Source: Microcella flavibacter
Lineage (GTDB): Bacteria > Actinomycetota > Actinomycetes > Actinomycetales > Microbacteriaceae
Reading direction: 5' to 3'
Assembly (NCBI RefSeq): GCF_012530535.1
Contig: NZ_CP051299.1
Coordinates: 558,001 to 622,000, forward strand
Length of the DNA stretch: 64,000 nucleotides
Each line of letters starts with the position of its first letter. Position 1 is the first letter of the stretch. Positions 1 to 9,323 of the stretch are shown piece by piece. Under the pieces are notes generated by a model. That model saw nothing but the letters and a program-made list of their open reading frames with translations, was not told the DNA's origin and ran no database searches. The position numbers and the translations under genes are program-made.

Positions 1-2
1 AG

Positions 3-1118
3 CAAGGATGGTCTCCCGCCGCCAACGTCGCCTACGAAATCTGGATCGAAGGCACCGGGAAGCAATACCGCGCCACTGCACAGGACATCCGAAACGGAAC
101 GCTCTACTCGTTTTCCAGCAGCGGCACTTTCAACGGACGTAATGCCGGCTCGGTGGGCGCAGCCTCTCCGCAGCCCGGCTACGCGCCTCCCACGGCTGGC
201 TTCATTGTGAACGACCTCAACTCCAGCCTCGACGTGGAGGCGCTCGCGGCGCTGATGGCTGGAGTGGCGCTCAACAAAATCTGCGAGGCAACGCTTTTCC
301 AACCGGGCACGCGTAACGCTCGCTCGAGCGTGAGCGACCAAACCCTCGCATGTCAGGCCGCTGCCGCCGCGCCCGGCGCTACCGTCCGGTCGGTCCTCCT
401 CGCAATCCGCACTGCCGGCGGCGCCGAGCAGCTGGCGATGCTCGCTGCGTACTTCGTCGGTGACGGCACGTCTCCTGCAACCGTCCCAGACTGGGTCGAC
501 GGCACGGACCGTGGTCCGCGCTCCTCGCCGCCAGTGCCGGAAACGCTTCCGCCTCTGTGGCGCCTGCCCAAGTCGGCACCGCAGTTCGGCACCCAGAACG
601 GTCTCGGCGACGAAGCCGCGAAAACAGCTCTCAAGCAGTGCTACGCGCTCGTTGCATTCGCCGGCACTTTCGGCGACCCATACAAGACGTGCCGCACGTT
701 GCCGATCTTCGCCTCGGGTCAATCCGACGTTCCCCAAGCGACCAACCACGACCTCGAAGCGCTACAGCAGACGCCTTCGTGGGTGAAGCTGGACTATCGC
801 CCGAGCACGGAAAATCCTTCTCCGAGGAGCTGGTACACCGGGGATCCGCGCTGTGCGTCCGCGGACCCGGCCGAAGGAACCAGTTGCGATGAGTACCCCT
901 TCTACTCGAGCGAGCAGGGCGGGCAGCTCGCCGTACCCGCGCCGAGCCTGAAAGTCATCGATAGCGGTCAAAACTCGTTCCAGGGGACGCTTTACAGCTC
1001 CTTCCTCGCCGCATGCAAGTTGACCGCGAAGCCCGTCGGCGAGCGGCAATTCCTGGCGATCCCGCTGCCTCCCGCCGCGTCGCCGTTGCCGACGCTCGCG
1101 ATCTGCAATGGCAACTAA
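3..1118 (+). CDS. NucA/NucB-type nuclease domain protein, 5' end outside the window
   Basis: The reading frame is open from base 3, so only the C-terminal part of a longer protein is seen. Its last third carries a CDEYPF motif at 885-902 followed by YSSEQGG and a QGTLYSSFLAACKL segment, the pattern of the NucA/NucB deoxyribonuclease domain (a metal-dependent DNase domain found in secreted nucleases and polymorphic toxins). The part before it is unassigned. The stop codon is 3 bases before an SMI1/KNR4-like gene, the usual toxin-then-immunity order. Codon use is less GC-biased than the window, and a recombinase lies downstream, so transfer is likely. Nuclease activity is inferred from the motif. 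The delivery part of the protein, if any, cannot be seen. Confidence 0.65.
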   Translation, partial: QGWSPAANVAYEIWIEGTGKQYRATAQDIRNGTLYSFSSSGTFNGRNAGSVGAASPQPGYAPPTAGFIVNDLNSSLDVEALAALMAGVALNKICEATLFQPGTRNARSSVSDQTLACQAAAAAPGATVRSVLLAIRTAGGAEQLAMLAAYFVGDGTSPATVPDWVDGTDRGPRSSPPVPETLPPLWRLPKSAPQFGTQNGLGDEAAKTALKQCYALVAFAGTFGDPYKTCRTLPIFASGQSDVPQATNHDLEALQQTPSWVKLDYRPSTENPSPRSWYTGDPRCASADPAEGTSCDEYPFYSSEQGGQLAVPAPSLKVIDSGQNSFQGTLYSSFLAACKLTAKPVGERQFLAIPLPPAASPLPTLAICNGN

Positions 1119-1121
1119 GCC

Positions 1122-1697
1122 GTGGCCTTCGACGAAGTCAGCGGCCTGCTTGAACAATATGAGCAGCTCGCCCGCGAACGGGGCTCCATCGCTGTCGAGT
1201 ACTTGCGACCAGGGCTCTCACTGGGGCAGATTGACGATGTCGAACAACGCCATGGATTCACCCTCAGCGAGGACGTCAAAGCGATTTGGTCTTGGCATAA
1301 CGGAATCGGCCCTCGACCGTCGCCCGAAACGCCCCGTCGGATCGGCGCGGCCTGGGACTTCATGGACCTCGATCGCTCCATCGATCACGCCAACAGTTCA
1401 CTCCTCAACCGGAACAGCGGCGACGCAGATCGCTACGTGTTCAGTCGCTGGGTGACCTTCGCGGCCTCCTCGGTGAGTGCCGTCATCGAAACCAGCAACA
1501 CCCGTATCCCCGACTCTCCTGTGCTCGTGGACGACGTCACGCAGTCGGTGCTGAACTACCCCATCGTGACCGTCGCCGAGAAGCTCCGCTGGTTCATTTG
1601 GGCTATAGAGAACGAGGCGTGGCACGTCGACGACAAGGGTGCCTGGCAGTCGAACTTCGACTTGTTCCCGAAGAACGCTTTCAAGGACGTCATCTGA
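1122..1697 (+). CDS. SMI1/KNR4-like immunity protein
   Basis: A 191-residue cytoplasmic protein with no signal peptide. Residues about 30-60 (LSLGQIDDVEQRHGFTLSED followed by an HNG tripeptide) match the start of SMI1/KNR4 (SUKH) domains, a superfamily that commonly supplies immunity proteins for polymorphic nuclease toxins. It starts at a GTG 3 bases after the nuclease stop codon, so the two are surely co-transcribed and probably translationally coupled. The likely role is to bind and block the nuclease in the producing cell; this is an inference from family and position. Start chosen by proximity; no strong ribosome site lies outside the upstream gene. Confidence 0.65.
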   Translation: MAFDEVSGLLEQYEQLARERGSIAVEYLRPGLSLGQIDDVEQRHGFTLSEDVKAIWSWHNGIGPRPSPETPRRIGAAWDFMDLDRSIDHANSSLLNRNSGDADRYVFSRWVTFAASSVSAVIETSNTRIPDSPVLVDDVTQSVLNYPIVTVAEKLRWFIWAIENEAWHVDDKGAWQSNFDLFPKNAFKDVI

Positions 1698-1982
1698 CCG
1701 CGGGCATATTTGCCGGCAAGCCCCATAGCGAGTGAAGGTGGCGGGCGCTGAGCCGTTGATGCTGATGGCGTGGGTGGAGGCATGTGCCGCTCGAGGTGAT
1801 TATCGGCGCTGGCCTCTATGGACGTCACTTGGAGGCAGCGATGAGCTGGATGATTGCGAGCGGTGCGCCGTCAAGCAGGTAGGGGCGAAGGCCCTGCGGG
1901 TGGCGCGGACGTTGCCGGTGGTGACGGGCGCGATCGCGACGATGAAATCGAGTAGTGAACGAAAGGCGGGGCGCACTCGTGC
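1698..1982. other. unassigned stretch between immunity gene and recombinase
   Basis: A 285-base stretch with lower GC than the window. A 100-codon open frame from a GTG at 1732 runs into the recombinase gene on the other strand, but its translation resembles no family I know and has no ribosome site. It may be debris of a mobile element. A 16-base sequence at 1702-1717 (GGGCATATTTGCCGGC) is matched 14 of 16 at 2603-2618, flanking the recombinase gene. Confidence 0.3.
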
Positions 1983-2570
1983 CTATTTGGCGTTGATCAG
2001 ATCGCGCTGGGCGGCTCGCTCGAGCGCGCGGTAAACCGTTGACCGCGCGACGCCGAACAACTCCGCGAGCTCACCCGAGGTGTGTGCGCCCGCATGGTGC
2101 AAGCTGACCAGGTGCGCTTCTTGCGTCGGCGAGAGCTTGGGCTGTTTCCCACGAAGCCGGCCTTTCGCGCGAGCGACGGCCATCCCCTCGCGCGTGCGGG
2201 CTCGGATGAGGTCAGCTTCGAACTCAGCGACCATGCCGAGCACGTTGAACAACAACCTACCAACGGGGTCTGTCGGGTCGTAGAGGCTTCCGCCGAGGCT
2301 CAGACGCACGCCCTTCGCAGCGAGCTCGTCGGCGATGTCGCGGGCGTCCGGCAGGGAGCGAGCGAGCCGGTCGAGCTTCGACACCACGAGAGTGTCGCCT
2401 TCGCGACACGCGGCGAGGGCCTCCCGCAGGCCCGGCCGAGCACGGTTCGTGCCGGTCAGTCCGTGGTCGACGTGGATGTTCCGTTCCTCGACCCCGAGCG
2501 CCATCAGCGCATCCCGCTGGACGGTCAGATCTTGCTCGATGGTGGAGACGCGTGCGTACCCGATCAGCAT
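1983..2570 (-). CDS. serine recombinase (resolvase/invertase family)
   Basis: A 195-residue small serine recombinase of the Tn3 resolvase/DNA invertase type. The N-terminal MLIGYARVS carries the catalytic Ser9; the LDRLARS motif and the GRLLFNVLGMVAEFEADLI E-helix stretch follow; residues about 145-187 hold the HTH_7 DNA-binding helix-turn-helix (GELAELFGVARSTVYRALE). Length and domain order are complete, so it looks functional. These enzymes cut and rejoin DNA at short paired sites through a phosphoserine link. It sits beside a toxin/immunity pair and no transposase is visible, so it may be a remnant of a transposon or a stand-alone invertase/resolvase. Two similar 16-base sequences at 1702 and 2603 are candidate sites only. 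Confidence 0.9.
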   Translation of the reverse strand: MLIGYARVSTIEQDLTVQRDALMALGVEERNIHVDHGLTGTNRARPGLREALAACREGDTLVVSKLDRLARSLPDARDIADELAAKGVRLSLGGSLYDPTDPVGRLLFNVLGMVAEFEADLIRARTREGMAVARAKGRLRGKQPKLSPTQEAHLVSLHHAGAHTSGELAELFGVARSTVYRALERAAQRDLINAK

Positions 2571-2757: not shown

Positions 2758-3390
2758 ATGGAGCCGGGGCGCGCGTCGTGGGGCCCAGTGCGCGTTGCCT
2801 GGGCGTCCGTGCCCGGAGACGCATCGGACCGACCGACACTGCGTGAGGCGCGGCGGGTGCTCGCCCGCGAGCTGCTCACGGCCCTCGTCGCCGAGCTCGC
2901 GCTCGAGGGCGTGGCGACCGTGACCGTTTCCCGCCGCTGCTCGATTTGCGGTGCCGAGGACCACGGCTCCCCGAGCATCCCGGGCGCGCCGGTCGTCGTG
3001 AGCATCGCCTACGCCGGGGGCGCGGTAGCGGTCGCGGTCGCCCTGCAGACGGAGACCGCCGCGGTCGGGGTGGACCTCGAGCGCGTGACGGCCGCGGGCC
3101 GGCATGCGCCGCTCGGGGAACTGGGGGCGCTGTTCGCGCCCGGAGCTGCTCCGAGCCTGGAGGCGTGGACGCTGCTCGAGGCTGCGCTCAAGGCCGATGG
3201 CCGGGGGCTGCGGGTCGAGCTCGCCGACTGCATCATCCGAGAGGCGCCGGCAGCGGCATCCCGAGACGGCGCCGCCGAGTACGAGGTCGGTGCACCCGGC
3301 CGAGCAGGCCCGATCGAGGCCGCCGTCCTGCCCGGCCCCGAGGGCTTCGTGCTCAGCGTCGCGGCGATACCGCCGACGCCGCCGTCCTGA
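2758..3390 (+). CDS. 4'-phosphopantetheinyl transferase superfamily protein
   Basis: A 210-residue enzyme that would move the phosphopantetheine arm of CoA onto the serine of carrier proteins. Visible landmarks are the CSICGAEDHGSP element at about residues 61-72 typical of the family, GVDLE at 104-108 (metal-binding Asp106 and Glu108) and WTLLEAALK at 137-145 with the third acidic residue Glu141 and Lys145. The usual first lysine of WxxKE is leucine here. It faces the synthetase operon and its 3' end overlaps the M1 peptidase gene by 38 bases (tail to tail). The obvious client is Ser557 of the neighbouring synthetase, an inference from adjacency. Confidence 0.85.
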   Translation: MEPGRASWGPVRVAWASVPGDASDRPTLREARRVLARELLTALVAELALEGVATVTVSRRCSICGAEDHGSPSIPGAPVVVSIAYAGGAVAVAVALQTETAAVGVDLERVTAAGRHAPLGELGALFAPGAAPSLEAWTLLEAALKADGRGLRVELADCIIREAPAAASRDGAAEYEVGAPGRAGPIEAAVLPGPEGFVLSVAAIPPTPPS

Positions 3391-4717
3391 CCGCGCGAGC
3401 GACCGCACGCCCCGCGCGCCCGGCCCTCGGCAGCGCCGGCAGTGGCAGCTCGTCGAGCCAGTCGTGCAGCAGCTCCGACACCGGCACGGGCGACAGCTGC
3501 TCGGCCAGCGCGACGAACTCGTCCGTCGTCGCCGTGCCCGAGGCGTGCTGCGCGCACCACGCCCGCAGCACCGCGAAGAAGGCCTCGTCCCCGGCCGTCA
3601 GTCGCAGCGCGTGCAGCGCGAGCGCGCCGCGCTTGTAGACGCGGTCGTCGAACATGAGGTCGGGGCCCGGGTCGCGCAGCAGCAGGTCCTGCGGCAGGGC
3701 GTCGAGGCGCGCGTGGTGGTGCATCGCGCGCTCGTGGGCGGTGTCGGCGCCCGAGTGCTCCGACCAGATCCACTCGGCGTAGCAGGCGAAGCCCTCGTTG
3801 AGCCAGATGTCGCTCCAGGCGGCGACGCCGACGCTGTTGCCGAACCACTGGTGCGCGAGCTCGTGGGCGATGAGCCGCTCGAGCCCGCCGACGCCGTCGA
3901 TGTGACTCGCGCCGAAGACGCCGATGCCCTGCGACTCGAGCGGGATCTCGAGGTCGTCGGCGGTGACGACGATCGTGTACTCCGGCAGCGGGTAGGGCCC
4001 GAACCGCTCCTGGAAGAGCGCCATCATCGCGCCCAGGTCGGCGAAGTCGGCGTGCACGCGGTCGGCCAGGGGCCGCGGATAGAACAGGCGCCCGGTGCGG
4101 TCGTCGAGCGGCACCGTCTCCTCGACGAAGCGGCCGAGCACGACGGTCATCAGGTACGTGGGGGTCGGGATGCTCTGCTCGAACTTCCACGTCGCCGTGC
4201 TGCCGCGCCCGCCCTTCTCGACGCGCACGCCGCTCGCCACGACGGTGTACGCCGCATCCGTGCTGATCGTGAGCCCGTAGGTGGCCTTGTCGGAGGGCAC
4301 GTCGTTGCAGGGGAACCAGGTCGGCGAGCCGGTGGGCTGCGAGGCGACGAGCGCGCCGTCCTCCAGCTCCTCCCACCCGATCGTGCCCCAGCGGGAACGG
4401 CGGGGCCGGGGTGCTCCGCCGTAGACGACGGTGAGCTCGACGCCGTCGCCCGCCTCGAGCGGTGCCGGCAGGGTGATGCGTAGCTTGCGGTCGCTCTGGT
4501 GGAACGCGGGCGCGCGCCGACCATCCACCAGCACCTTCGATGCCCGCAGCCCGACGAGGTCGAGCGAGACGGTCGAGATCGCGGCCGCCGCGTGCACGCG
4601 GATCACGGCGGTGCCGCTCAGCCGGTTGGTCGAGGCCTTGTAGTCGAGGGCGAGGTCGTAGTGGTCGACGCCGATCGAGGCGTCGCCGCTCTGCGGGGTG
4701 TAGCGGTCGCCGCTCAT
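3353..4717 (-). CDS. short M1 family zinc metallopeptidase, candidate poly-lysine hydrolase
   Basis: A 454-residue M1 aminopeptidase-type enzyme without the long C-terminal domains of PepN. Zinc ligands are seen in HELAHQWFGN (His285, Glu286, His289) and the distal Glu308 in NEGF. The GAMEN exopeptidase loop is replaced by PLESQGIGVFG, keeping the glutamate. No signal peptide is obvious. The start is the ATG at 4717, which overlaps the synthetase TGA as ATGA, so translation is coupled; an upstream start at 4759 would lie inside the synthetase. In Streptomyces albulus the epsilon-poly-L-lysine-degrading enzyme is a zinc-dependent exo-type aminopeptidase, so a role in trimming or detoxifying the polymer made by the upstream enzyme is a reasonable inference. 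Confidence 0.85.
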   Translation of the reverse strand: MSGDRYTPQSGDASIGVDHYDLALDYKASTNRLSGTAVIRVHAAAAISTVSLDLVGLRASKVLVDGRRAPAFHQSDRKLRITLPAPLEAGDGVELTVVYGGAPRPRRSRWGTIGWEELEDGALVASQPTGSPTWFPCNDVPSDKATYGLTISTDAAYTVVASGVRVEKGGRGSTATWKFEQSIPTPTYLMTVVLGRFVEETVPLDDRTGRLFYPRPLADRVHADFADLGAMMALFQERFGPYPLPEYTIVVTADDLEIPLESQGIGVFGASHIDGVGGLERLIAHELAHQWFGNSVGVAAWSDIWLNEGFACYAEWIWSEHSGADTAHERAMHHHARLDALPQDLLLRDPGPDLMFDDRVYKRGALALHALRLTAGDEAFFAVLRAWCAQHASGTATTDEFVALAEQLSPVPVSELLHDWLDELPLPALPRAGRAGRAVARAVRTAASAVSPRR

Positions 4718-7700
4718 CCGTTCGAGGCCTGGTAGGCGCGCACGGTGACGGCGCGCCACGGGCCGATGGGGTTGCCGCTCCAGCGGCTGCCGACGGGCAC
4801 GGTCTCGCCGCGCATGACGAGGGAGGCGGGGCCGACGGTCGCGTTCGCGCCGATGCTGGCCGCGGGCAGGATGACGCTGTGCGGGCCGAGGGTCGCGCCC
4901 GCCTCGAGGGTCACCGTGTCGATGCTCATCACCCGATCATGGAACAGATGCGTCTGAACCACACATCCGCGGTTGACGGTGGCGCCGTCGCCGAGGGTGA
5001 CGAGGTCGGGCTCGGGCAGCCAGTAGCTGTCCGTCCAGACGCCGCGGCCGATCGTCGCGCCGAGCGAGCGCAGCCAGACGGCGAGGGCGGGCGTGCCCGA
5101 GGCGGCGTTGGCGAACCAGGGCGCGGCGACCATCTCGGTGAAGGTGTCGGCGACCTCGGTGCGCCAGACGAAGCTCGACCAGAGCGGGTGCTCGCCGGGG
5201 CGGATGGGGCCGACGATCGTCCACTTCGCGAGCGTCGTCGCGGCCGCGGCGAGCACGCTGGCGACGAGCAGCACGACGCCCGAGGCGAGCACGGCGACGA
5301 GCAGGCCGGCGTCGAGCACGATGCGGGCCAGCACGAGCAGCACGCCGAGCCCGATCGCGCAGGTGACGACGACGGGCACGATGCGGCCGAGCTCCCACAG
5401 CGCGCGGGCGAGTCGCAGCGAGCGGCGGGGGCGGTAGGTGCGCTCGAGGTCGGCGTCGTTCACGACGCGCCGCAGGCGCACGGCGGGCGAGCCGAGCCAC
5501 GACGAGCCGGGCTTCGACTTCTCGGGCGCGACCGAGAGCACGGCGACGAGCCCGTCCTTCGGCACGCGGTGGCCGGCGCCCGCCATGCCCGAGTTGCCGA
5601 GGAACGCCCGCTTGCCGATGCGCGCGCGGCCCAGGCGCATCCACCCGCCTGAGAGCTCGTAGGTGGCGACCATCGTGTCGTCGGCGAGGAAGGCGCCGTC
5701 GTCGATCGTCGTGAGCGAGGGGATGAGCAGCACGGTCGACGCCTCGACGTCGCGGCCGACCTCGGCGCCGAGCGCGCGCAGCCACAGCGGCGTCAGCAGG
5801 CTCGAGTACAGCGGAAACAGCAGCGTGCGCGCCGAGTCGAGCAGCCGCTCGGTCGTCCACGCCTGCCAGGCGACGCGCCCGCGCACGGGATGCACGCCCT
5901 CGACGAGCCCGATCGACAGCAGCCGCACGAGCACCAGCACGGTGAGCGCGAAGACGAGGCCTGTCACGAGGGTCGCCGGCACGAGCCAGAGCAGCGCCGC
6001 CGGGACGGCCGCGGCGAGGGACTCGGCGCCGCGCATCCCGGTCGCGATGATGCCCGCACCGGCCGTCATCGCGACGAAGGGCAGCAGCCCGAGCAGGCTC
6101 GACGAGGCGCCGTAGGCCCACAGCCAGCGGCGCGGCGCAGGCGGGCGCTCGGGGGCGAGGGGGCGGGATGCTCCGCCGACGCGCACCGCCGGCGACCCCG
6201 CCCAGCGCTGCCCCGCGCGTACCCGGCCGAAGACCGCGGAACCCGGGGCGATCTCGGCCTCGCGCCCGATGCGCGTGCCGGGGGCGAGCGTGCTGCGCGA
6301 GCCGATCGTGGCGCCGGCCCCGATGCGGATGCCGCCGATGCGCACGGTGTCGCCGTCGATCCAGTAGCCCGAGAGGTCGACCTCGGGCTCGATCGCGGCG
6401 CCGTCGGCGATCGTGAGCATGCCGGTCACGGGCGGCAGCGAGTGCAGGTCGACGTTCGTGCCGATCGTCGCGCCGAGGGCGCGGGCGTAGTACGAGACCC
6501 AGGGCGCCCCGGCGAGCCCGACCGGGTCGATCTGGTGGGCGACCTGCTCGGCGAGCCACAGCCGCAGGTGCACGCCGCCGCCGCGCGGGTAGTCGCCGGG
6601 CTGCACGCCGCGCAGCAGCAGGCGCGCGATGGCGGCGGAGACGAACATGCGGCCCGCGGGCGTGATGAACAGCAGGAACCCGATGATGATGACCGGCAGC
6701 GGGGCGGCGGGCAGGAACTCGAAGCCGGGCATGAGGCGCAGGATCGCGCTCGCCGTGAGCAGCCACAGCAGCCAGCGCAGCCCGGCGAAGACGAACAGCG
6801 GCACGCCCGCGAGGGTCTGCACCCACTGCATGATGCGCGGGGTGGGGCGGGCGACGCTGAAGCCGTTCGGAACGGCGTCGAGCTCTGACGACTCCGCCTC
6901 GACGGCGTCGGCCATCTGGCGCAGGCGCGGCAGGTCGTAGACGTCGGCCATCGTGAACTCGGGCGCGCGCGTGCGGATGCGCGAGACGAGCTGCGCGGCC
7001 GCGAGCGAGCCGCCGCCGAGCTCGAAGAAGTCGGCGTCGTCGTCGGCGGGGCGGATGCCCAGCACGGCGACCCACTGCTCGGCGAGCCACGCGGCGGTGC
7101 CCGAGAGCGTCGAGTCGCCCTCATCGGTGCCGGTGAGCGGCCACGGCAGCGCGGCCTTGTCGACCTTGCCCGAGGTGCGGACGGGCAGGTCGTCGACGAT
7201 CGCGAGCAGCGGGATGAGCGGCGCGGGCAGCGCGAGCGCGAGCTCGGCCCGCGCGGTCTGCCGGTCGAAGCCCTCGGCGGGCACGACGTAGGCGACGAGC
7301 AGCGGGATGCCGCCCTCCGAGCGCTGCACGACGACGGCGGAGGCGGAGATCGCGCTCAGCGCGTCGAGAGCCGCCTCGACCTCGCCGAGCTCGATGCGGC
7401 GGCCGCCGATCTTCACCTGGTCGTCGGCGCGGCCCTGGAATACGAGGCCCTCGGCCTCGAGCCGCACGAGGTCACCGGAGCGGTAGGCGCGATCCCAGCC
7501 GATCGAGGGCATGGGCGCGTACTTCTCGGCGTCCTTCGCCGGGTCGAGGTAGCGGGCGAGGCCGACCCCGCCGATGACGAGCTCGCCGACCTCGCCGAGG
7601 GCGACCCGCTCGCCGGTCGGGTCGACGACCGCGAGCGACCAGCCGTCGAGCGGCAGGCCGATGCGCACGAGCCCCTCGCCGTCGAGCAGCGCGGCCGAGG

Positions 7701-8676
7701 CGACGACCGTGGCCTCGGTGGGGCCGTAGGTGTTCCAGACCTCGCGGCCCTCGGCGACGAGCCGCGCGACGAGCTCGGGCGGGCAGGCCTCGCCGCCGAA
7801 GATCAGCAGGCGCACGTTCTCGATCGCGTCGCGCGGCCACAGCGCGGCGAGCGTCGGCACGGTCGAGACGACGGTGATGCCGTGGCCGACCAGCCACGGG
7901 CCGAGATCCTCACCCGAGCGCACGAGGGCGCGCGGGGCGGGCACGAGGCAGGCGCCGTGCCGCCAGGCGAGCCACATCTCCTCGCACGAGGCGTCGAAGG
8001 CGACGGAGAGGCCGGCGAGCACGCGGTCCCCGGGCCCGAGCGGAGCATCCTGCAGGAAGAGGCGGGCCTCGGCGTCGACGAACGCGGCCGCCGAGCGATG
8101 CGTCACCGCAACGCCCTTCGGTACGCCCGTCGAGCCCGAGGTGAAGATGATCCAGGCGTCGTCGTCGACCGTCGGCGGCGGCACGGTCGGGATCGCCCGC
8201 GAGGCGGGGTGCGGGGCGTCGCCGGCGAAGAGGGCGGCGCTCGCCGCGGCATCGGCGCCGGTCGCGGTGGCGGGATGCTCGCTCGCGGCTCCATCCACGC
8301 GCTCGAGCACCCCGGCTCCCGTCACGACCCCGACGACTCCGGCCTCGCCGAACACGAGCCGCGCCCGCTCGGGCGGATCATCGGCGTCGACCGGCACGTA
8401 CGCCGCCCCGACCGCCATGATGCCGAGGATCGCGAGGTAGAGCTCCCGACCGCCGGAGGGCATCCGCACGCCGACGCGGTCGCCGCGGCGCACCCCCTGC
8501 TCACGCAGTCGAGCGGCGGTGCGGCCGACCTGCACGAGCAGCTCGGCGTAGCTGAGAGCCCCGGCGGCGTCCTCGATCGCGGAGGCCTGCGGGTGCCGTG
8601 CGCTCGTCTCGCGCAGGATGTCGAGGAGCGTGCGGGGCTCGGCGGCCAGCGCCCCGCGGTCGAGGAACTGCTGCAC
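4714..8676 (-). CDS. Pls/PosA-type non-ribosomal peptide synthetase, predicted lysine-activating
   Basis: A 1320-residue membrane-bound synthetase. The adenylation domain (about residues 15-515) has A3 IIFTSGSTGVPKG at 176-188, NTYGPTEATV at 315-324, YRSGDL at 398-403 and TSGKVDK at 501-507. The carrier domain has the GGGS motif with Ser557. The rest has about six membrane spans in three pairs, each pair followed by a hexapeptide left-handed-helix-like domain, exactly the layout of the epsilon-poly-L-lysine synthetase Pls; there is no condensation or thioesterase domain. Aligned by eye to GrsA-PheA, the specificity residues are D228 A229 E232 S271 I292 G294 T316 V324 V325 K504, very close to the published lysine code DAESIGSVCK. 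A homopolymer of lysine or a related diamino acid is the likely product. Confidence 0.88.
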   Translation of the reverse strand: MQQFLDRGALAAEPRTLLDILRETSARHPQASAIEDAAGALSYAELLVQVGRTAARLREQGVRRGDRVGVRMPSGGRELYLAILGIMAVGAAYVPVDADDPPERARLVFGEAGVVGVVTGAGVLERVDGAASEHPATATGADAAASAALFAGDAPHPASRAIPTVPPPTVDDDAWIIFTSGSTGVPKGVAVTHRSAAAFVDAEARLFLQDAPLGPGDRVLAGLSVAFDASCEEMWLAWRHGACLVPAPRALVRSGEDLGPWLVGHGITVVSTVPTLAALWPRDAIENVRLLIFGGEACPPELVARLVAEGREVWNTYGPTEATVVASAALLDGEGLVRIGLPLDGWSLAVVDPTGERVALGEVGELVIGGVGLARYLDPAKDAEKYAPMPSIGWDRAYRSGDLVRLEAEGLVFQGRADDQVKIGGRRIELGEVEAALDALSAISASAVVVQRSEGGIPLLVAYVVPAEGFDRQTARAELALALPAPLIPLLAIVDDLPVRTSGKVDKAALPWPLTGTDEGDSTLSGTAAWLAEQWVAVLGIRPADDDADFFELGGGSLAAAQLVSRIRTRAPEFTMADVYDLPRLRQMADAVEAESSELDAVPNGFSVARPTPRIMQWVQTLAGVPLFVFAGLRWLLWLLTASAILRLMPGFEFLPAAPLPVIIIGFLLFITPAGRMFVSAAIARLLLRGVQPGDYPRGGGVHLRLWLAEQVAHQIDPVGLAGAPWVSYYARALGATIGTNVDLHSLPPVTGMLTIADGAAIEPEVDLSGYWIDGDTVRIGGIRIGAGATIGSRSTLAPGTRIGREAEIAPGSAVFGRVRAGQRWAGSPAVRVGGASRPLAPERPPAPRRWLWAYGASSSLLGLLPFVAMTAGAGIIATGMRGAESLAAAVPAALLWLVPATLVTGLVFALTVLVLVRLLSIGLVEGVHPVRGRVAWQAWTTERLLDSARTLLFPLYSSLLTPLWLRALGAEVGRDVEASTVLLIPSLTTIDDGAFLADDTMVATYELSGGWMRLGRARIGKRAFLGNSGMAGAGHRVPKDGLVAVLSVAPEKSKPGSSWLGSPAVRLRRVVNDADLERTYRPRRSLRLARALWELGRIVPVVVTCAIGLGVLLVLARIVLDAGLLVAVLASGVVLLVASVLAAAATTLAKWTIVGPIRPGEHPLWSSFVWRTEVADTFTEMVAAPWFANAASGTPALAVWLRSLGATIGRGVWTDSYWLPEPDLVTLGDGATVNRGCVVQTHLFHDRVMSIDTVTLEAGATLGPHSVILPAASIGANATVGPASLVMRGETVPVGSRWSGNPIGPWRAVTVRAYQASNG

Positions 8677-8708: not shown

Positions 8709-9323
8709 TCAGGAGGAGAGCCGGGCGAGCAGCTGCGCCTTGGTGAGGCGCGAGTAGCCGGTGATGCCGGCGGCGCGGGCGCGCCCGCGCAGCTGCGCGA
8801 CGGTGAGCACGGCGAGGTCGACCGCGGGAGCGGCCGGGTCAGCCGGGGCGGCGGTGGGGTCCGGAGCCGGCTCGGTCGTCGTCGCCGCCGCGGGCTTCCT
8901 CTCCGCGACCTTCTTCTCCGGCGTCGCGACCGAGGTCTTCTTCGACGACGTCTTCTTCGACGCCTTCTTCTCCGCCGCCTTCTTCTTTGCGGCGGCAGCC
9001 TTGTCCGCCTCCTTGGCGGCGCGCTTCCGCTCGGCCTCGGCGGTCTTCGTGGCGGCGGCGGCGAGGCGGGCCTCGGCCTTGTCGGTCGCCTTCTCGACGC
9101 GGGCGATCGCGGCGACGGCCTTCTTCACGACCTTCTTCGGCGAGCGCTCGACGGATTTGCGCGAGGCGGTCGAGGCCTCCTTGGCGTCCTCGGCGAGCGT
9201 GCGCAGCTTCTTCGCGTCGCGCTTCGGCAGCGTCTTCGCGAGCCGCTTCGCGTCCTTCGCGGCGGCGGCCGCGGCGTCCAGCGCGGCGTCGGCCGCTCGC
9301 ATCGTCTTCGTGGTCTTCGCCAT
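8709..9323 (-). CDS. lysine/alanine-rich protein with C-terminal Rho_N/SAP-like motif
   Basis: A 204-residue protein, strongly basic, with a long Ala/Lys/Glu-rich helical region (residues about 5-140, including KKKAAEKKASKKTSSKK) like actinobacterial histone H1-type tails, an acidic-proline linker, and a last 35 residues (LTVAQLRGRARAAG, LTKAQLLARL) matching the Rho N-terminal/SAP helix-extension-helix. The start ATG at 9323 was preferred to a longer frame reaching 9665 because the extra residues look non-coding. It is 32 bases upstream of the synthetase on the same strand and could share its transcript. Nucleic-acid binding is inferred; a tie to poly-lysine metabolism is only suggested by position. 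Confidence 0.75.
   Translation of the reverse strand: MAKTTKTMRAADAALDAAAAAAKDAKRLAKTLPKRDAKKLRTLAEDAKEASTASRKSVERSPKKVVKKAVAAIARVEKATDKAEARLAAAATKTAEAERKRAAKEADKAAAAKKKAAEKKASKKTSSKKTSVATPEKKVAERKPAAATTTEPAPDPTAAPADPAAPAVDLAVLTVAQLRGRARAAGITGYSRLTKAQLLARLSS

Follow-up and report, generated by a model that had tools for sequence, protein, structure and literature searches.

A putative horizontally acquired epsilon-poly-L-lysine cassette in the genome of Microcella flavibacter

The window analysed here is a stretch of 64,000 nucleotides (nt) of the Microcella flavibacter genome (contig NZ_CP051299.1, positions 558,001 to 622,000). Close to its left end, at window positions 2758–8676, three genes encode a nonribosomal peptide synthetase (NRPS) resembling epsilon-poly-L-lysine synthetase (Pls), an M1 metallopeptidase and a predicted 4'-phosphopantetheinyl transferase (PPTase). 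With a probability that we put at about 0.9, this locus is a horizontally acquired cassette for the synthesis of epsilon-poly-L-lysine (epsilon-PL). The assignment is based on the gene anatomy, the identity of the specificity code, the operon structure, the co-distribution of the three genes and a pattern of occurrence compatible with transfer. The host genome comprises 2.62 Mb in a single contig and is 99.99% complete; the GC content of the window is 73.8%. The coordinates and the three genes given in the initial annotation proved to be real, and all three are intact. The main features are:

4714..8676, minus strand: pls, epsilon-poly-L-lysine synthetase-like NRPS, 1320 residues (TIGR02353, 708.5 bits; PDB entry 7WEW, 599.7 bits; code DAESIGTVVK)
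7132..8640, minus strand: adenylation domain, approximately residues 13–515, with predicted lysine pocket D228 A229 E232 S271 I292 G294 T316 V324 V325 K504 (7WEW alignment and code)
6901..7089, minus strand: carrier domain, residues 530–592, with phosphopantetheine serine S557 in GGGS (PF00550, 46.5 bits; S557 identical in 88 of 88 rows)
4765..6876, minus strand: C-terminal polymerising region, approximately residues 601–1304, with three membrane-helix pairs, three hexapeptide/beta-helix-type domains and QTHLFHDR at 1241–1248 (TIGR02353, AlphaFold2, conservation)
3353..4717, minus strand: pldII-like M1 metallopeptidase, 454 residues, translationally coupled to pls by an ATGA overlap (PF01433/PF17900; HEXXH and E308 conserved in all 84 rows; downstream of pls at all 80 named loci)
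2758..3390, plus strand: small Sfp-like PPTase, 210 residues, convergent with the M1 gene, the gene ends overlapping by 38 nt (PF01648, 20.0 bits, below cut-off; motif kept)

Architecture and specificity code of the synthetase

The pls open reading frame (ORF) runs from 8676 to 4714 on the minus strand, starts with GTG and is uninterrupted. Residues 619–1304 match the NCBIfam model TIGR02353 ('Pls/PosA family') with 708.5 bits, so far above the cut-off of 423.1 that this sequence match is too strong to have arisen by chance. In a Pfam scan at E ≤ 0.001 the protein shows AMP-binding (residues 22–375, 226 bits), PP-binding (530–592) and Hexapep (782–815) families and no others, hence neither a condensation nor a thioesterase family. 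Together with the AlphaFold2 model described below, these matches bear out the initial annotation, which had assigned to the protein the layout of epsilon-PL synthetase: an adenylation (A) domain, a carrier domain, six transmembrane segments and three soluble domains, lacking condensation and thioesterase domains. The host genome contains a single full-length match to pls; three further places match weakly, in the adenylation region only.

Among solved structures, the best relative of the A domain is that of Streptomyces albulus Pls (7WEW, 599.7 bits), and by this score the window protein is nearer to Pls than to the poly-ornithine synthetase PosA, whose A domain (8G95) reaches 196.9 bits. The GrsA code positions were placed onto the motifs of the A domain. 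Alignment by program yields D228, A229, E232, S271, I292, G294, T316, V324, V325 and K504, i.e., DAESIGTVVK, the same ten letters that had been read by eye in the initial annotation; an error in that eye alignment was therefore rejected. All ten residues are identical in S. albulus Pls, and the code does not vary in the 134 Pls rows aligned, 7WEW included (rows of at least 300 bits, comprising duplicate fetches of the window and of a close relative as well as N-terminally cut rows). The residues reported to contact lysine in 7WEW, D213, E217, S256, T301 and K495 (PMC11253843), correspond by our mapping to code positions 1, 3, 4, 7 and 10, and all are conserved in the window protein. Code position 2 has been argued to set the length of the side chain, with Phe for 2,3-diaminopropionate (Dap) and 2,4-diaminobutyrate (Dab), Met for ornithine (Orn) and Ala for lysine (PMC10522769). 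The window protein carries Ala229 at this position and not the Met of PosA. On the specificity code, Orn, Dab, Dap and beta-lysine were rejected as substrates, and poly-lysine is, as far as can be judged from the sequence, very probably the product of the cluster.

An AlphaFold2 model of residues 600–1320, based on an alignment of 39 rows, has a mean predicted local distance difference test score (pLDDT) of 80.3 and a predicted template modelling score (pTM) of 0.85. Long helices occur in it as three pairs, and after each pair comes a stretch of short strands that may be read as a beta-helix domain. Hexapeptide acyltransferases and gamma-carbonic anhydrases occur among the best 60 of the 92 rows of a profile search and among the best 50 of the 389 rows of a fold search, the matches of the latter being weak and local (best E 1.1e-4 and TM-scores to the query of at most 0.17 within these 50). 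These results are in line with the model published for PosA, in which three left-handed beta-helices are packed as in sugar-nucleotide acyltransferases (PMC10522769). No pertinent solved structure for the polymerising domain emerged from a literature search.

In the third of these domains, Q1241–R1248 (QTHLFHDR) shows no variation in 88 Pls rows, and Q1241, H1243 and D1247 are also present in two split-type members. It is one motif among many, since 142 positions from residue 520 onward are invariant in these rows. From conservation only, it is proposed that the third domain holds the polymerising site and that H1243 and D1247 may be part of it; the confidence of the AlphaFold2 model is low at H1243 (block mean 65 for model residues 641–650). 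The split type was observed in two genomes of the same class (L145 and L146), where a protein with a carrier domain and a Pls-type C-terminal region is accompanied by a separate adenylation protein whose code, DIWQSTADDK, differs strongly from that of Pls.

The peptidase and the probable phosphopantetheinyl transferase

The presence of an M1 peptidase and a PPTase on the flank of the synthetase, as initially annotated, is upheld for the former by its PF01433/PF17900 matches and zinc site; the latter is a probable PPTase, with conserved motifs and a Pfam score below the cut-off. The M1 frame is intact, with HEXXH at 285–289 and the second glutamate at E308, and its ATG overlaps the stop codon of pls by 4 nt (junction GGATGAGC). 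The gene thus resembles PldII in its M1 zinc site and in overlapping the end of pls by 4 nt. The pls and pldII genes of S. albulus are reported to share this 4-nt overlap (PMC4361855) and to be translationally coupled (PMC9223678), and the same overlap is found in a Streptomyces record with a gene annotated as pls. Gene order was compared in the best 80 of 582 named relatives from the scan (L034–L113, hereafter the named loci). An M1 homologue lies downstream of pls on the same strand in all 80, at a distance of at most 1 kb in 79, and the exact 4-nt overlap is present in 44. All 84 aligned M1 rows, which represent the 80 named loci, three Streptomyces/Kitasatospora plasmid loci and the window, retain HEXXH and the second glutamate. 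An M1 match accompanies three of the five plasmid copies fetched, L137, L138 and L140.

The PPTase frame is also intact. Of the 41 aligned rows, between 37 and 40 retain each of G104, D106, W137, E141 and K145, and A142 is kept as well; the motifs of Sfp-type PPTases are GxD and W-x3-E-A-x2-K. The Pfam ACPS model matches two places in the host genome, one elsewhere that exceeds the cut-off and the window gene below it. Among the named loci a PPTase occurs near pls in 39 of 80: Microbacteriaceae 28/31, Micrococcaceae 9/10, Propionibacteriaceae 1/1 and Intrasporangiaceae 1/1, against none in Nocardiaceae (0/26), Mycobacteriaceae (0/5), Tsukamurellaceae (0/3) and the other loci (0/3). The gene lies beyond the M1 gene, in the downstream direction, and on the strand opposite to pls in 38 of the 39; the exception is L057, where it is encoded upstream, on the strand of pls. 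Its position and co-distribution suggest that the window PPTase serves the window carrier domain. If carrier loading depends on the recurrent PPTase, providing this enzyme as well could make a difference when pls genes from this group are expressed in other hosts. The S. albulus study that reports the 4-nt overlap names PPTases solely as one class enriched among the strain-specific genes (PMC4361855).

Distribution, probable transfer and gene neighbourhood

The three genes co-occur in the same two of 26 genomes of the host genus, that of the host (G000) and G203, and at the thresholds used the remaining 24 gave no match to any of them. When only genomes with a completeness of 90% or more and a contamination of 5% or less are counted, which leaves out seven of these 24, the figure is 2 of 19. 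The G203 products are 95–96% (Pls), 94% (M1) and 80% (PPTase) identical to those of the window and retain the specificity code, the HEXXH site and the PPTase motifs. The 6.1-kb block of the three genes is 92.4% identical between the two genomes, versus 85.6–90.3% for other aligned blocks longer than 1 kb.

In the gene tree (88 full-length proteins, Pls-type rows only, from a quick maximum-likelihood search), the window protein and that of G203 form one branch within a group of Microbacterium rhizomatis, M. album, M. suaedae and Microbacterium sp. Leaf320 (SH-aLRT 100). This group joins a metagenome-assembled genome labelled Propionibacteriaceae and then the remaining Microbacterium copies. A warning of long branches meeting applies to the Streptomyces/Kitasatospora outgroup rows; the window protein, placed within Microbacterium, lies well away from that root. 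The most similar pls outside the host genus is that of M. suaedae (G164), with 78% identity, all others reaching at most 71%. In contrast, when the host galU was compared with 15 genomes, M. suaedae ranked 10th of the 12 other-genus genomes (69%).

The ABC1-type kinase gene on the right flank has matches in 25 of the 26 genus genomes at E ≤ 1e-50, although the match in G209 is only 37% identical and probably a paralogue. In two of six congeners fetched (G201 and G207), the aligned part of this gene lies only 312 and 80 bases, respectively, from sequence homologous to G000 540.0–543.7 kb; the joined-flank junction was not seen in the other four. In G000 the same two flanks are about 24 kb apart and enclose pls, a resolvase gene and two inverted IS110-type copies. 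Core inheritance of pls in the genus is disfavoured by its presence in 2 of 26 genomes, the gene tree and the contrast with galU. Rather, the restricted distribution, the nesting within Microbacterium unlike that of galU, and the joined flanks in two congeners suggest that pls, the M1 gene and the PPTase gene form a transferred cassette. As a wider proposition, which we hold somewhat more probable than its opposite, the poly-lysine operon of the Micrococcales can be passed on as a self-sufficient unit comprising pls, coupled pldII and its own convergent PPTase, with a Lys/Ala-rich Rho_N-type protein immediately upstream in part of the Microbacteriaceae. A small genome without any other pls-like synthetase would then gain poly-lysine production in one transfer, and the window would be a recent case.

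At E ≤ 1e-150, a pls match is present in 79 of 199 sampled family genomes. The match is in two pieces in G007, G076, G090, G093, G096 and G153, and contains one in-frame TGA in G060, G072, G077, G089, G140 and G192; possible causes are insertions, broken copies and edge effects of the matching. Two further genes adjoin the cassette:

8709..9323, minus strand: Lys/Ala-rich protein of 204 residues whose C-terminal part carries a Rho_N-like motif; its gene stops 32 nt short of the pls start codon (PF07498, 20.8 bits, below cut-off)
1983..2570, minus strand: serine resolvase/invertase beside the cassette (PF00239, 138 bits)

The Lys/Ala-rich gene is a possible further member of the operon. A Rho_N-like C-terminal motif occurs just upstream of pls in 12 of the 31 named Microbacteriaceae loci (L034, L035, L036, L039, L041, L042, L044, L045, L049, L050, L051 and L054) at E ≤ 2e-5, in ORFs ending 2 to about 330 nt before pls, and in none of the other 49 named loci at this threshold. 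The count of 12 uses the C-terminal motif and the ORF ends; an alternative filter on lysine count selects 5 of the 31. Homologues of the Lys/Ala-rich protein are also present in G203 and in G189, the latter having no pls match.

Window positions 1–2570 have a lower GC content and encode a protein with a NucA/NucB-type DNase domain, an SMI1/KNR4 (SUKH-1) protein and the serine resolvase; the DNase and SUKH-1 genes look like a toxin-immunity pair in an accessory segment. To the left of the window in G000, an IS110-type element is present as two identical inverted copies of about 1.5 kb each, about 1.4 kb apart (L142:13060-14579 and L142:15947-17466). The conserved flank (L142:19-3677) holds a ketoacyl-synthase III-like gene adjoining a gene with alpha/beta-hydrolase and AMP-binding domains; the two resemble OleA and an OleB-OleC fusion from the olefin synthesis pathway. 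In the whole window, Rfam models matched one tRNA and nothing else.

Proposed function, alternatives and relation to known systems

Lysine as the substrate, the isopeptide linkage, export and self-protection are proposed by analogy with characterised relatives. The A domain would activate L-lysine as Lys-AMP and load it onto the carrier domain at S557, previously converted to the holo form by the convergent PPTase. The membrane-bound C-terminal region would then link lysines iteratively by isopeptide bonds between alpha-carboxyl and epsilon-amino groups, without a thioesterase, and a chain of a few tens of residues would be released extracellularly. Outside the membrane, the coupled PldII-like M1 peptidase may trim or degrade the polymer and so protect the producer. 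The Corynebacterium variabile homologue, expressed in Streptomyces coelicolor, is reported to give epsilon-PL (PMC8117764).

Several observations weigh against an active poly-lysine cassette of the proposed kind. No detectable epsilon-PL was reported from C. variabile itself, nor from Corynebacterium glutamicum carrying its gene (PMC8117764), and for that reason the window cluster may be silent. The ACPS match of the PPTase (20.0 bits) is under the curated cut-off of 25. A PPTase was not found near pls in 41 of the 80 named loci, nor beside any of the five plasmid copies, among them those of Streptomyces and Kitasatospora; a PPTase at the locus is thus not a general requirement for pls. Two of the plasmid copies, one from Streptomyces and one from Rhodococcus (L139 and L141), have no M1 match within the stretch fetched. 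PosA, poly-Dab and poly-Dap synthetases are absent from the tree, so that the clustering with Pls as opposed to these enzymes is given by the A-domain scores. The donor and the direction of transfer are uncertain.

Three other explanations of the locus were considered. The first is that the cassette might be a silent or decaying island gene without present function in this strain, as its occurrence in only two of 26 genus genomes, the resolvase and identical inverted IS110-type copies in the same segment, and the lack of a detectable product from the own copy of C. variabile (PMC8117764) could indicate. Against this, all three frames are intact, the G203 copies keep the code, the HEXXH site and the PPTase motifs at the identities given above, and the three-gene block is better conserved between G000 and G203 than the other aligned blocks over 1 kb; this explanation is considered unlikely. 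Somewhat less unlikely, but still clearly a minority view, is that the polymer serves mainly as a surface polycation, in adhesion, biofilm formation or the handling of phosphate or metals, with the peptidase as a regulator of its length. The spread of pls over many genera would fit such a role, and the regulation and natural function of epsilon-PL have been called less well understood (PMC8117764), but nothing in the window points to it and epsilon-PL is antimicrobial (PMC8117764, PMC10522769).

The explanation to which we give the least weight leaves the family assignment intact and changes the monomer: a cationic homopolymer synthetase for ornithine, 2,4-diaminobutyrate, 2,3-diaminopropionate or beta-lysine. 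The initial annotation had left this open, and TIGR02353 spans Pls and PosA alike. However, Ala at code position 2 agrees with Pls and not with PosA (Met) or the poly-Dap and poly-Dab synthetases (Phe) (PMC10522769), the full ten-residue code is that of 7WEW, and a selection of neighbouring ORFs that was scanned contains no diaminobutyrate transaminase, aspartokinase or lysine aminomutase. The epsilon-PL cassette is retained as the preferred reading.

The initial annotation had suggested a cationic isopeptide polymer made outside the well-known producers. Layout, code and neighbours favour the poly-lysine part of this suggestion; its novelty does not stand, because Jiang et al. found pls with the peptidase in coryneform actinobacteria in 2021 (PMC8117764). 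Homologues were reported there from Corynebacterium, Brevibacterium, Arthrobacter, Microbacterium and others, and a survey of Antarctic Actinomycetota describes non-alpha poly-amino acid (NAPAA) clusters in every strain (PMC11078813). Literature searches on poly-L-lysine in Microbacteriaceae and on NAPAA in Agrococcus gave nothing pertinent, judging by titles and the openings of abstracts. The initial annotation thus describes correctly a cluster of a kind already known, pls outside Streptomyces having been known since 2021.

With the pls-pldII pair of S. albulus the window shares the order of adenylation, carrier and C-terminal regions, the identical code and the 4-nt overlap with the M1 peptidase gene. 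The Streptomyces copies compared (L137, L139 and L140, none of them S. albulus itself) are only 48–49% identical to the window protein in the C-terminal region, and the PPTase gene linked to pls in the window was not found beside them. PosA, the delta-poly-L-ornithine synthetase of Acinetobacter baumannii (8G95), has the TIGR02353 family and overall design in common with the window protein but differs in its code, DMEHNGTVSK versus DAESIGTVVK, and is reported as a single-gene operon (PMC10522769). The poly-diaminobutyrate and poly-diaminopropionate synthetases are similar in architecture (PMC8117764) and are set apart, by their descriptions, by Phe at code position 2 (PMC10522769) and a different gene context (PMC8117764). 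The nearest published kind is the coryneform Pls of C. variabile and relatives, Microbacterium included, with which architecture, peptidase operon and pocket agree; the words phosphopantetheinyl and PPTase do not appear in the main text of that paper (PMC8117764). What is added here, namely the PPTase partner and the pattern of transfer, is modest. The locus adds a further genus of small-genome actinobacteria to the range of this characterised antimicrobial-polymer operon, and presence in two of the 26 genomes of the genus provides a set usable to test the effect of gaining poly-lysine synthesis.

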